NCBI RefSeq assembly: GCF_000421485.1
Contig: NZ_ATXC01000001.1
Coordinates: 1 to 64,000 of the forward strand
Length of the DNA stretch: 64,000 nt
Direction of reading: 5' to 3'
From: Desulfurobacterium sp. TC5-1
GTDB lineage: Bacteria; Aquificota; Aquificia; Desulfurobacteriales; Desulfurobacteriaceae
Of the stretch, positions 35,089 to 57,142 are shown piece by piece. Made by a program: the position numbers and the translations under genes. The notes beneath the pieces were generated by a model. That model had not been told where the DNA came from and searched no databases. It saw only the letters and a program-made list of their open reading frames with translations. Numbering within the stretch: the first letter of the stretch is position 1; every line of letters begins with the position of its first letter.

Positions 35089-35559
35089 TTAATTATCGCT
35101 TAACTTCTTCAGCATTTCTAAAACCTTCTCAACATGTCCTTTGACTCTTACGTTTTTCCATACATGTACCACTTTTCCTTCAGGATCTATTAAATAGGTT
35201 GTTCTTACCACACCGTAATACTCTTTACCGAATCTTTTCTTGAGTTTCCATACTCCGTATTCTTCAATTACTTTATGTTCCGGATCACTTAGAAGTGTTA
35301 CTTTGAGATTTTTCTTCTCTTTAAATTTTCTGTGGCTTTCCACAGAATCGGGACTTATACCTACGACTTCCGCGTTTAGCTTTTTAAATTCGTCTAACTT
35401 TTCAGTGAATCCTTCTGCCTCTTTTGTACATCCTGGTGTATTATCTTTTGGATAAAAATAGAGAACAACCCATTTCCCTTTAAAGTCTTTTAAGCAGGTC
35501 TCTTTTCCCGTGTCGTCTTTTAAGCAAAAACCTGGTGCTATTTTCCCTGGTTCTACCAT
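35089..35559 (-). CDS. bcp: Thioredoxin-dependent peroxiredoxin, Bcp/PrxQ type
   Basis: Bcp reduces peroxides using thioredoxin. The peroxidatic Cys lies in VVLYFYPKDNTPGCTKEAEGF, normal TGA-free coding. Typical later parts are NAEVVGISPDSVESHRKF and RTTYLIDPEGKVVHVWKNV. The second Cys of the PrxQ motif (CTxxxCxF) is absent here, as the text reads GCTKEAEGF, so it is the 1-Cys-motif variant. ATG 35559 has AGGAGG upstream; the longer frame to 35589 does not add family sequence. 156 aa. Confidence 0.93.
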   Translation of the reverse strand: MVEPGKIAPGFCLKDDTGKETCLKDFKGKWVVLYFYPKDNTPGCTKEAEGFTEKLDEFKKLNAEVVGISPDSVESHRKFKEKKNLKVTLLSDPEHKVIEEYGVWKLKKRFGKEYYGVVRTTYLIDPEGKVVHVWKNVRVKGHVEKVLEMLKKLSDN

Positions 35560-52330: not shown

Positions 52331-52422
52331 TATTTCCTCCATGTAAAATGGTCTGTGTTTAAAGATACATTTAATTTTCTCTCTTTCATTGATGTTCGTC
52401 AAAAGTTTAAGGATTATCTTCC

Positions 52423-52451
52423 TTGACAGCGTTTGTTTAAAGAGTTATGCT
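52423..52451 (+). promoter_or_regulatory. Promoter of the ankyrin gene
   Basis: TTGACA (52423-52428), 17 bases, TATGCT (52446-52451); transcription start about 52458. Confidence 0.7.
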
Positions 52452-52453
52452 AA

Positions 52454-52468
52454 TGATAATCTTTTTCA
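52454..52468. promoter_or_regulatory. Fur-type box at the ankyrin gene start site
   Basis: TGATAATCTTTTTCA matches 12 of 14 fixed positions of TGATAATnATTATCA and lies across the predicted +1, where a repressor would act. T-richness makes a chance match possible. Confidence 0.4.
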
Positions 52469-52481
52469 AAAAGAGGTGAAG

Positions 52482-53678
52482 GTGAGAAAGGTTCTGAGTG
52501 TTGCAGTAATTCTTCTCTTTTTAACAACTGGAAGTTATGCGGGTGTTTCAAATCTTGAAATGTATAGAGGGCTTTTTTTGAGGGAGACGGCTCACCTGAA
52601 AAAGAGTGCTCTTCATGAAGCGGTTTTGAGGAACGATTTAGAAACAATAAAAAAACTTGTTTCGGAAGGTGTGAACGTTAATGTTCGCGATTCAAAAGGG
52701 ATGACACCTCTTGATTATGCATCGGCGCTTGACGAAGCAGATATTGTTAAATACCTGATAAATCACGGGGCAAGGATTGATGTTAAGGATAGGGAGGGTT
52801 ATCAGCCGATTCACTTTGCAGCGGAAAATGATGCTCTTAACTCTCTTAAGGTTTTAATAGAGAATGGAGCGGATGTAAACAGCAGGGATCGTTTAGGATT
52901 TACACCTCTTCATAGGGCAGTTCTGAACGGTAATCTTGACGTTGTTAAGTATTTGATAAAAACAGGAGCTGATATTAACTGTAAGAATGCTGGTGGTTAT
53001 CAGCCGATTCACTACGCTTCTATAAAGAACTATCCCGGTATTCTTGAATTTTTAATTTCAAAAGGTGCAGATGTAAATGCAAAAAACTTTATGGGATTTA
53101 CGCCACTGCATTTTGCCGTTTTTAAGGGAAATTTTGATATTGTGAAAATTCTTGTTAAGCACGGGGCTGATGTTAATGAGAAGGATGTTCATGGGTGGAC
53201 TCCTCTTTTGAAAGCTATAATAAAGCATAGAAACAAAATAGCGGTGTTTCTTATTAATAACGGTGCTGACGTTTCTGTTGAAACTTCCCTTGGTGAAACG
53301 CCCCTCCATTTTGCTGCCGGAGAAGGAGAACTTAACATTGTTAAGATTCTTTTAGAAAAAGGGGCAAATATTAATGTCAAGAATAGAGCGGGTAATACTC
53401 CTTTACATTATGCCGTTTACATGAACAGATTAAACATTGTGAGGTATCTTCTCTCTAAAGGGGCTTATGTTAATGTTCAGAATAGAGCAGGTGAGACGCC
53501 TCTCTATCTTGCTGCTAAAAATGGTAACTACAGAATTGTGAAGTTATTGTTAGACTCTGGAGCAGATGTTTCTCTTAAAACTAAAAAGGGTCTTACTCCT
53601 CTTTCCATCGCGACGATGAAAGGATATATTAATATAGTGAAGCTTCTTGAGAAGTGTGGGAGAGCGGGGAATATCTAA
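52482..53678 (+). CDS. Periplasmic ankyrin-repeat protein
   Basis: GTG 52482 with GAGG five bases upstream gives a clean signal peptide (VRKVLSVAVILLFLTTGSYAG). About 11 ankyrin repeats of 33 residues follow with the pattern G-TPLH-A---G---IVK-LL--GADVN-K, from SALHEAVLRNDLE to INIVKLLEKC. It is 398 aa with little outside the repeats, so it is a pure binding scaffold. It stands alone after its promoter and 143 bases before the selenoprotein peroxiredoxin. In Pseudomonas a periplasmic ankyrin protein (AnkB) supports catalase KatB; a similar link to peroxide defence is possible but unproven. Confidence 0.88.
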   Translation: MRKVLSVAVILLFLTTGSYAGVSNLEMYRGLFLRETAHLKKSALHEAVLRNDLETIKKLVSEGVNVNVRDSKGMTPLDYASALDEADIVKYLINHGARIDVKDREGYQPIHFAAENDALNSLKVLIENGADVNSRDRLGFTPLHRAVLNGNLDVVKYLIKTGADINCKNAGGYQPIHYASIKNYPGILEFLISKGADVNAKNFMGFTPLHFAVFKGNFDIVKILVKHGADVNEKDVHGWTPLLKAIIKHRNKIAVFLINNGADVSVETSLGETPLHFAAGEGELNIVKILLEKGANINVKNRAGNTPLHYAVYMNRLNIVRYLLSKGAYVNVQNRAGETPLYLAAKNGNYRIVKLLLDSGADVSLKTKKGLTPLSIATMKGYINIVKLLEKCGRAGNI

Positions 53679-53751: not shown

Positions 53752-53780
53752 TTGACATTAAAGTTTCTTTTCGTTACAAT
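53752..53780 (+). promoter_or_regulatory. Promoter of the peroxiredoxin gene
   Basis: TTGACA (53752-53757), 17 bases, TACAAT (53775-53780), 41 bases before the ATG. Confidence 0.75.
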
Positions 53781-53803: not shown

Positions 53804-53821
53804 CCAATAAGGAGGTGGAGT

Positions 53822-54439
53822 ATGGCTCTGGTAGGACAGAAGGCGCCGGAATTTGAGCTTCAGGCGTACGACCCAACAACAGATAGCTACACTTCAGTGA
53901 AACTTGCCGATTATGTTCCGAACAATGATGGTAAGTTTTTAATTGTATGCTTCTATCCGGCAGACTTTACGTTTGTCTGACCAACAGAATTAGCTGCGGT
54001 CGCAGCTATGCACGAGGAGATCAAAAAGCGTGGTGCTGAAGTTATTGCTATTTCAACAGACACAGTGTTTAGTCACCAGATTTTCTGTAAGGTGGAACCT
54101 CTTATGAAGGATGTTAAATTCCTGCTTGCTGCTGATCCAACGGGTGAAACTGCAAGGAAGTATGGCGTTTACATGGAAGATGCAGGAATTGCAAGAAGAG
54201 GAAGATTTATTATCAACCCTGACGGTGTAATTGTTGCTGAGGAAGTTCTTAATCCACCGGTTGGTAGGAGCGTTAAGGAACTCCTCAGGCAGCTTGATGC
54301 CTGGAAGTATGTTTATGAACATCCTGATGAAGCATGTCCTGCTAACTGGAGACCGGGTAAAACAACACTTAAGCCAGGTCCTGACATTGCAGGTAATGTT
54401 GGAAGTGTAGTAACCATTGATGAAATTCTTTCAGAGTAA
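53822..54439 (+). CDS. prxU: Selenocysteine-containing peroxiredoxin (AhpC/typical 2-Cys Prx family)
   Basis: The gene reads as one frame from ATG 53822 (AAGGAGG upstream) to TAA 54439 if TGA 53978-53980 is decoded as selenocysteine, giving 205 aa. The TGA is codon 53 and falls exactly on the peroxidatic position: FYPADFTFV-Sec-PTE, where relatives have FVCPTE. The resolving Cys is present near the C-terminus (EACPANW, Cys172). A SECIS-like hairpin lies just downstream of the TGA. A gene caller that stops at TGA would report only the part from about 54008. No sel genes or tRNA-Sec are in the window. Confidence 0.93.
53991..54008 (+). promoter_or_regulatory. Bacterial SECIS element
   Basis: TAGCTGC and GCAGCTA form a perfect 7-bp stem closed by the loop GGTC, beginning 10 bases after the UGA and with the loop 17 bases after it. 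E. coli fdhF SECIS has a GGUC apical loop 18 bases after its UGA. It lies inside the coding sequence. Confidence 0.8.
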
Positions 54440-54458
54440 AAGTGTATTAGAAGTTTAT

Positions 54459-54493
54459 AAAGAGAGATGGGAGCTAAATCCCCATCTCTCTTT
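54459..54493 (+). terminator. Terminator after the peroxiredoxin gene
   Basis: AAAGAGAGATGGG and CCCATCTCTCTTT form a perfect 13-bp stem around a 9-base loop, followed by GCTTTT. Confidence 0.85.
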
Positions 54494-54544
54494 GCTTTTA
54501 AAAGTAAAAGATTTAAGACGACAAAAAACTTTAAGGAGGACAAG

Positions 54545-55918
54545 ATGGACTTTCTCCTGACGTTATCCCGTCTGCAGTTTGCGATGACGGCCTTTTTCCA
54601 TTTTATTTTCGTTCCTCTTACACTTGGCCTTTCAACCCTTATTGCGATTATGCTCACTCTTCACTACAAGACGGGTAAAAAAGTTTATAAAGATATGGCC
54701 AAATTCTGGACAAAACTTTTTGCTATCAACTTTGCCATTGGTGTAGCGACAGGTATTGTTCATGAGTTTGAATTCGGTATGAACTGGTCGGTCTATTCCC
54801 GTTTTGTAGGTGATATTTTTGGTGCACCGCTTGCGTTTGAAGGACTGATGGCGTTCTTCTTAGAGTCAACTTTTATAGGTATTCTTATCTTTGGGTGGGA
54901 TAGAGTGCCCCAAAAAGTTCACCTGTTGGCTGCGTGGCTCACAGCTATTGGCAGTAATATTTCTGCTTTCTGGATTCTTGTTGCTAACGGTTGGATGCAA
55001 CATCCTGTTGGTTCAAAGCTCGTTGAAGGCCTTGCAGGTAAGAAGGCGGTTCTTACAAACTTTGCCAGCATAGTATTTAATCCTGTTGCCGATACAAAGT
55101 TCATGCATACCATAACTGCCGGATTTATTCTTTCTGCAGTTTTTGTTCTCAGTATCAGTGCCTATCACCTGCTCAAAGGAAGGAATATTGAATTGTTCAA
55201 AAAGTCAGCGTTTATTGCGATTATTTTTGGACTGATGGCTTCTGTTGCTGAAATGGGTATTGGCCACGCTCATACAATAGAGGTTGCAAGAGTGCAGCCC
55301 ACCAAGATAGCAGCTGCTGAGGCTTTATGGGAAACGAAAAAAGGTCCTGCCATTGCAATTGCTGCGTGGGCTGACCAGAATGGAAAGCGCAACGTTTTTG
55401 AAATTCCTTCAATTCCAGGAACGCTCAGCATGATGCTGTACAATTCACCGTCTGCTGAGGTGAAAGGTCTTAAAGACCTCCAGAAGGAATTTGAAAAAAT
55501 CTGGGGACCTGGAAACTATATCCCGCCTGTTAACATTACTTTCTGGTCATTCCACCTTATGATATATCTTGGAATGTTCTTTGTCCTTCTATTTGCTGTT
55601 GGACTTCTTAAGTTTAAAAATCTTGAAAATAGCAGGACTTATCTGAAAGTTGCTCTTTTTTCTCTGCCTCTTCCATACATTGCAAACTGGCTTGGATGGG
55701 CAATGGCAGAGGTAGGAAGACAACCGTGGATAGTGTATCCTCTTAACTGGAAGGATAATACTTCCGTTGCACTTAAAACGGCAGAAGCTGTTTCTAAGAT
55801 TACGAACTTTGAGATTCTGGCAAGTTATGTTGTTTTCCTTGTGATATTTACGGGTCTTGCAATTGCAGACTTTTACCTCCTTGCAAAATATGCTTCAAAA
55901 GCACCTGAAAATCATTAA
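54545..55918 (+). CDS. cydA: Cytochrome bd ubiquinol/menaquinol oxidase subunit I
   Basis: CydA holds the three haems and the quinol site of the bd oxidase, which reduces O2 to water with high affinity. Typical parts are LSRLQFAMTAFFHFIFVPLTLGL (haem ligand His), EFGMNWSVYSRFVGDIFGAPLAFEGLMAFFLESTFIGI, GWMQHPVG, MGIGHAHTIEVARVQPTKIAAAEALWET and GRQPWIVYPL. It is 457 aa, with a short Q-loop. ATG 54545 has AAGGAGG upstream. In an anaerobe it would serve mostly to scavenge oxygen. Confidence 0.95.
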   Translation: MDFLLTLSRLQFAMTAFFHFIFVPLTLGLSTLIAIMLTLHYKTGKKVYKDMAKFWTKLFAINFAIGVATGIVHEFEFGMNWSVYSRFVGDIFGAPLAFEGLMAFFLESTFIGILIFGWDRVPQKVHLLAAWLTAIGSNISAFWILVANGWMQHPVGSKLVEGLAGKKAVLTNFASIVFNPVADTKFMHTITAGFILSAVFVLSISAYHLLKGRNIELFKKSAFIAIIFGLMASVAEMGIGHAHTIEVARVQPTKIAAAEALWETKKGPAIAIAAWADQNGKRNVFEIPSIPGTLSMMLYNSPSAEVKGLKDLQKEFEKIWGPGNYIPPVNITFWSFHLMIYLGMFFVLLFAVGLLKFKNLENSRTYLKVALFSLPLPYIANWLGWAMAEVGRQPWIVYPLNWKDNTSVALKTAEAVSKITNFEILASYVVFLVIFTGLAIADFYLLAKYASKAPENH

Positions 55919-55936
55919 TCTGGTGGAGGTGTAGCT

Positions 55937-57142
55937 ATGAATTTTGATTTACAATCAATCTGGTTTCTCCTTGTAGGGGTGCTTATCATTGCCTACCTTG
56001 TAACTGATGGCTTTGACTTTGGGGTTGGTATTCTGCACCCATTTGTTGCTAAGACAGATGTTGAAAGGAGAACGATGCTTAACTCTATCGGTCCTGTTTG
56101 GGACGGAAACGAGGTGTGGCTCATTACTGCAGGTGCGGCAGTTTTTGCTGCATTTCCGGAACTTTACGCTGCACTCTTTAGTTCTCTTTACATAGCGCTT
56201 TTTGTTGTTCTTGTTGCGCTGATTATGAGAGCATGTGCCTTTGAATTTAGAAGCAAAGAGGAAAATCCTTCCTGGAGGAACTTCTGGGACTGGATGGTTT
56301 TCTTTGGAAGCGCCGCGCCGGCTCTCCTGGTTGGTGTTGCGATAGGTAACGTTTTAGGAGGCCTTCCTGTTATTAACAGTCTTGCAAAAGGAGATTCTCT
56401 TTCAGGTTTTGTTTACGCTGAAAAGTTCCCGGTTAGCTTTTTAAATCTCATTAATCCCTTTACAACACACGGTCTTTACGGACTAATTGTTGGTGTAACG
56501 ACGTTCCTTTTCTTTACGCTTCACGGCGTTTCTTGGCTCCTGTGGAAAACAGAAGGAACGGTAGCAGAAAGAGCAAAATCAATAGCTACAAAACTCTGGT
56601 TTGCTTTTGTCATTTTCTACGTTCTATGTCTTGGTTTCGGTTACACTATTTCTTTCAGGATAGGTGATGCTTCAAAGCTTGCGTTTTTGGGTCTTCCACA
56701 GAATCTTATAGAGGCCATTAAGCCTCATATAAACAACGGTGTTGTTGAGCATGCACTCTTTAGAAGTATGCCTCTTGAGATTGTAATGATTCTTGCAGCT
56801 GTTGTGTGTGCGGTTCTTTACTTCCTATCTCTTCAAAAGTCTGACGGAAAGAGAGCTTTCCTCTTTTCGGCTTTAACGGTTGCTTTTGCAACACTCGGTG
56901 CAGCTATCGGTGCTTATCCGTTTATGGTTCCATCATCTCTTGGTGTTGAAAACAGCATTACTGTTTACAATGCTGCTTCAAGTACACTAACTCTCACCGT
57001 TATGCTTATAGCAGCGCTCATTTTCGTGCCCATTGTTATTGCCTATCAGGTTTGGGCATACAGAGTCTTCCTCTTTAAGATTTCACCGGAAAGCCTTGAG
57101 AGAGAGCTTAAGGCTGAAGGCGAGGAGGCAGAACTTTACTAA
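55937..57142 (+). CDS. cydB: Cytochrome bd oxidase subunit II
   Basis: CydB is the second core subunit, 401 aa with about eight membrane segments. It opens WFLLVGVLIIAYLVTDGFDFGVGILHPF and continues IGPVWDGNEVWLITAGAAVFAAFPELYA, the family signature, with PSSLGVENSITVYNAASS near the end. It follows cydA by 18 bases and is followed by a cydX-type gene. Confidence 0.95.
   Translation: MNFDLQSIWFLLVGVLIIAYLVTDGFDFGVGILHPFVAKTDVERRTMLNSIGPVWDGNEVWLITAGAAVFAAFPELYAALFSSLYIALFVVLVALIMRACAFEFRSKEENPSWRNFWDWMVFFGSAAPALLVGVAIGNVLGGLPVINSLAKGDSLSGFVYAEKFPVSFLNLINPFTTHGLYGLIVGVTTFLFFTLHGVSWLLWKTEGTVAERAKSIATKLWFAFVIFYVLCLGFGYTISFRIGDASKLAFLGLPQNLIEAIKPHINNGVVEHALFRSMPLEIVMILAAVVCAVLYFLSLQKSDGKRAFLFSALTVAFATLGAAIGAYPFMVPSSLGVENSITVYNAASSTLTLTVMLIAALIFVPIVIAYQVWAYRVFLFKISPESLERELKAEGEEAELY

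Follow-up and report, generated by a model that had tools for sequence, protein, structure and literature searches.

A predicted selenocysteine-containing AhpC-type peroxiredoxin shared by most Desulfurobacteriaceae genomes

The DNA analysed here (the window) comprises the first 64,000 nucleotides of a contig from Desulfurobacterium sp. TC5-1 and carries a reading frame interrupted at a single codon. The frame lies on the plus strand (53822-54439) and extends for 205 codons from an ATG at 53822 to a TAA at 54437-54439. It follows a ribosome-binding site, AAGGAGG (53809-53815, plus strand), located 6 nt 5' of the ATG, and its sole internal stop is a TGA at 53978-53980, codon 53. Does this codon end translation, mark a damaged gene or specify an amino acid? 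A sequence-only reading had proposed that it replaces the peroxidatic cysteine of an otherwise intact AhpC-type peroxiredoxin, which translation and alignment bear out. The gene very probably encodes a selenocysteine (Sec)-containing AhpC/Prx1-type (2-Cys-type) peroxiredoxin by SelB/SECIS recoding. This reading is based on the location of the UGA at the peroxidatic position, on a conserved SECIS at fixed spacing, on the presence of tRNA-Sec, SelA, SelB and SelD and on purifying selection 3' of the UGA.

Profiles and homologue alignment place the protein in the AhpC/Prx1 family. With UGA read as Sec, the 205-aa product includes AhpC-TSA (121.9 bits) and 1-cysPrx_C Pfam domains, and its active-site run is YPADFTFV-U-PTE. 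The first-ranked NCBIfam profile is PrxU (NF040737, a full-length match at 223.5 bits, below the equivalog cut-off of 270) and the second is AhpC (TIGR03137, 178.4 bits, below its cut-off of 272). In an alignment of 15 diverse homologues P46, T50, residue 53, R126 and C172 are invariant. This is, as judged by alignment, the peroxiredoxin active-site set together with the resolving cysteine (Cys172, 54335-54337, plus strand). As in bacterial selenoproteins, the in-frame UGA (plus strand) aligns with cysteine, here the invariant peroxidatic residue of 14 homologues and of 16 Cys paralogues. The product thus combines the two Pfam domains, PxxxTxxC/U, the arginine and a C-terminal resolving cysteine, as do typical 2-Cys enzymes. 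In the monomer model (pLDDT 86.7) residue 53 is located in the first turn of a helix spanning residues 52-62. The nearest PDB structures are those of a plant 2-Cys peroxiredoxin and Salmonella AhpC, the latter being the best match.

The second element of the argument is a stem-loop immediately downstream. The region 53978-54020 folds exactly as first described: a 7-bp stem (53991-53997 paired with 54002-54008, plus strand) begins 10 nt 3' of the TGA and closes a GGUC loop (53998-54001). In the window sequence alone this hairpin is unremarkable (folding z-score -1.5), and among synonymous recodings of the same peptide about 12% give a 7-bp stem at this place and 0.14% one with GGUC. Since the single-sequence test is unconvincing, we relied on comparison across genomes. 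Among 19 orthologues codons 58-62 (AAVAA) form the least synonymously variable five-codon stretch of the gene, with a synonymous difference of 0.17, where other invariant four-fold codons have 0.56; in 20000 random draws a value this low never came up. Stem positions are paired in 99.2% of alignment cells. The wobble pair 15-30 varies between G-U, G-C, A-U, U-A and C-G, and a U-A to C-G stem change occurs in one genome. The loop is GGUC in 18 of the 19 and AGUU in the other (G002), while the sixth stem pair is broken in one Sec copy (G018). The arrangement corresponds to that of bacterial SECIS elements, in which a structurally conserved hairpin follows closely on the UGA and at least one of the first two loop bases is a G. 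The Cys paralogues encode AAVNA at the corresponding site, with free codon choice and no comparable hairpin.

The genome also carries the apparatus that such an element would need. As the sequence-only reading had suggested checking, tRNA-Sec with a UCA anticodon (C1:1066406-1066496; 83.4 bits, cut-off 47), selA (C1:496107-497438; 613.6 bits), selB (C1:866928-868769; 381.6 bits) and selD (C1:1349303-1350229; 365.4 bits) were all found, at scattered loci. A tRNA-Sec has already been reported in Desulfurobacteriaceae (PMC4227106). In the sister family f2 (two genomes) matches to SelA and SelD are absent and only a Cys AhpC is present. The selD gene is itself a UGA gene (codon 11, G000:C1:1349333, L094:2034); its 7-bp stem and GGUC loop have the spacing of the peroxiredoxin element and different stem letters. 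Across the family the selD and peroxiredoxin elements share the 7-bp stem and a GGUC about 20 nt after the start of the UGA and differ by compensatory pairs. Aligned jointly, they contain 26 compensatory cells, whereas shuffles give 11.6 and slid controls no more than 3. The fdhA element of the family shares the GGUC loop but has it 1 nt further away, on a shorter apical stem, and was left out of the covariance model, which was built from the peroxiredoxin and selD elements. In the genome of the window this model finds only selD and the gene described here (E about 1e-7; next match E 3.6), a survey that is partly circular as both genes were in the training set. Three weak matches (E >3) fall in short or unrelated frames and were discarded.

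Bacteria are known to recode UGA in ways other than Sec, and the Sec reading here is drawn from sequence. The codon might therefore be decoded without selenium, as cysteine by an unusual tRNA or as tryptophan by near-cognate readthrough. We consider this very unlikely given the canonical tRNA-Sec with its UCA anticodon, the complete SelA/SelB/SelD set and the SECIS common to the peroxiredoxin and selD. Moreover, TGA is a normal stop elsewhere: it terminates 13 of 50 long open reading frames of the window, none of which is readable for at least 60 codons beyond it, indicating that the code is standard and not reassigned.

Conservation bears on a second alternative, that of a decaying or misread AhpC gene in which a nonsense mutation or a sequencing error turned TGC or TGT into TGA. 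Only one base separates these codons, and pseudogenes usually contain internal stops. However, the 19 independent assemblies that carry the identical TGA, among 22 Desulfurobacteriaceae genomes, have no other stop or frameshift at protein identities down to 80%. They include Desulfurobacterium, Thermovibrio and Desulfurobacteriaceae records. The 18 genomes with the same TGA besides that of the window exclude a read error at 53978. A scan of 136 Aquificota genomes matched 81 homologues outside the family, none with TGA at this site; apparent TGA matches in two other Aquificota (G070, G033), one of them from an earlier scan, proved to be ordinary C-terminal stops. Among the Sec genes dN/dS is 0.042 3' of the TGA and 0.068 5' of it, against 0.038 and 0.055 in the corresponding parts of the intact Cys paralogues. 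The equivalence of the downstream values indicates that the sequence 3' of the TGA is translated and under selection at the protein level. With the SECIS conserved as well, a lesion or misread base has almost no probability left. The sequence-only reading had held that one such gene in Aquificota would be notable; the gene proves to be a trait of the whole family rather than an isolated oddity.

We give equally little credence to the hairpin being an attenuator, the product then being either a peptide of 52 aa or a 143-aa protein made by reinitiation. An ORF caller does begin the second half at ATG 54008, but the methionine of this codon is lysine in every genome from outside the genus. The 143-aa part does not contain the catalytic residue, and the residues on either side of the TGA make up a single conserved Prx domain. 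Mechanical ORF calling indeed retains only this 143-aa 3' part. Ordinary annotation would mis-call the gene and lose its catalytic half, much as had been anticipated.

The selenocysteine reading leads to the question of where this form originated. A single branch of the tree (support 100/99) divides the Sec group from the Cys group. Eleven of the 22 family genomes carry both copies, eight the Sec copy only and three the Cys copy only, one of these three (G021) being just 83% complete. The Sec gene of most genera adjoins rpoD, dnaG and a gene resembling that of a pseudouridine synthase, names that we take from the sequences (BLAST alone was used to group the neighbouring ORF families). Sec and Cys copies stand in tandem at the rpoD place in G006, and a Cys copy alone occupies it in G011 and G016. 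In the genus of the window the Sec gene lies directly upstream of cydA and cydB. Probably, a Cys AhpC was duplicated in tandem at the rpoD place in the family ancestor and one copy changed from Cys to Sec; gene order suggests subsequent reciprocal losses and moves. The outgroup-rooted tree nests the Cys clade within the Sec group and could be read as a reversion from Sec to Cys. A Sec clade is, however, not rejected (AU p 0.33), so that the direction from Cys to Sec is taken from outgroup state and parsimony. The Cys paralogues outscore the Sec form on the PrxU profile (243.1 and 238.7 versus 223.5 bits), which makes the Sec form look like a local Aquificota AhpC branch rather than an import of PrxU. 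No PrxU-like gene was found at threshold in 46 genomes of another phylum.

Downstream of the gene, cydA and cydB (cytochrome bd oxidase; 54545-57142, plus strand) are maintained throughout the genus, an oxygen-defence neighbourhood. Directly 5', in each of the four genus members, lies a gene for a protein with ankyrin repeats and a possible signal peptide (52389-53678, plus strand). Ankyrin proteins are known elsewhere next to peroxide enzymes, as in the AnkB/KatB case. A consensus scan detected a sigma-70-like promoter candidate (TTGACA-17-TACAAT, 11/12 matches; 53752-53780, plus strand), which is suggestive only, as the overall number of such sites does not exceed that in shuffles. A hairpin followed by a U-rich stretch 3' of the gene (54458-54494, plus strand; -21.3 kcal/mol, z -5.2) is a probable intrinsic terminator. 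With its own promoter candidate and this strong terminator, the peroxiredoxin may be expressed separately from cydAB. Two other peroxiredoxin homologues occur in the genome, one in the window (35164-35481, minus strand, 37% identical) and one at G000:C1:942375-942878 (minus strand, L098, 33%). Both lack a stop in the matched stretch and may share in peroxide defence.

A plausible catalytic cycle can be outlined from what is known of the family. SelB bound to the GGUC hairpin would bring Sec-tRNA to the UGA. Sec53 would attack H2O2 or an organic hydroperoxide and become a selenenic acid, which would condense with Cys172, that of the partner subunit if the protein is a typical 2-Cys enzyme, to give a selenenylsulfide. 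Thioredoxin and thioredoxin reductase would then reduce this bond. The reductant, the peroxidase activity and the oligomer state are all inferred by analogy with family members. A single thioredoxin reductase of the genome scores 402.9 bits; its next homologues reach at most 63.9 bits, and no AhpF-like partner is apparent in this reductase homologue search.

The selenoproteome of the genus was surveyed with protein families and the SECIS model. Its four genomes (g1, G000-G003) gave no match to the formate dehydrogenase alpha subunit and none to PF00384, the molybdopterin oxidoreductase domain, and a second AhpC-type gene was not found. Other genera of the family possess formate dehydrogenase/molybdopterin oxidoreductase, some with a Sec FdhA. 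SelD and the Sec peroxiredoxin may therefore represent the entire selenoproteome of this genus. Zhang et al. (2006; PMC1794560) noted that no selenoproteome was without FdhA or SelD, and proposed that these proteins maintain the Sec trait. Formate dehydrogenase is otherwise among the two commonest reasons for keeping the Sec apparatus. We propose tentatively, as a possibility that falls somewhat short of probable, that the genus lost formate dehydrogenase and keeps the Sec apparatus for SelD and for a peroxide-defence enzyme that is its sole AhpC-type peroxidase.

These genes add a deep-branching thermophilic clade, from a hydrogen-using family, to the Sec peroxiredoxins. They also constitute a natural experiment in which close relatives carry a Sec copy, a Cys copy or both, in one case in tandem. 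What Sec contributes at a peroxidatic position can thereby be tested directly in these hot and mostly anaerobic cells; in the genus of the window they have the Sec gene next to cytochrome bd. The locus is equally an example of a principal antioxidant enzyme losing its catalytic half to ordinary gene calling.

Peroxiredoxins with a TxxU motif are an established kind of selenoprotein (PMC13188914). The sequence-only reading was right that such proteins are known, but they are less rare than it held, 91 having been counted in 78 organisms (PMC5029168). A literature search returned no paper linking selenoprotein or selenocysteine-peroxiredoxin terms with Desulfurobacterium; it covered papers outside their supplementary tables, where an earlier listing is possible. 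The Bcp/PrxQ-type set from the Sargasso Sea (COG1225, PMC1088965) shares TxxU and a predicted peroxidase function but belongs to another Prx subfamily; the papers file it under COG1225, and the present protein is AhpC-type. AhpC and typical 2-Cys enzymes (Salmonella AhpC, 4xra and 1n8j; plant BAS1/PrxA, 5zte) are similar in predicted fold (TM 0.85-0.96 for the model) and in PxxxTxx(C/U), the arginine and the resolving cysteine in a CPANW motif. They differ in having Cys where Sec is predicted here and in the AhpF-like reductase not apparent in this genome. Within the family, the Sec form is distinguished from its Cys paralogues by a 4-residue insert before GKF. Another close counterpart is PrxU, the Sec peroxiredoxin of Eubacterium (Peptoclostridium) acidaminophilum (Soehling 2001, as cited in PMC13188914). 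The two agree in Prx1/AhpC-like length, in domain order and in Sec at the TxxU peroxidatic position, but the score of 223.5 bits lies below the NF040737 cut-off of 270, a comparison made by profile rather than directly with the PrxU sequence. The Desulfurobacteriaceae proteins most likely correspond to a new clade of this known, PrxU-like kind.
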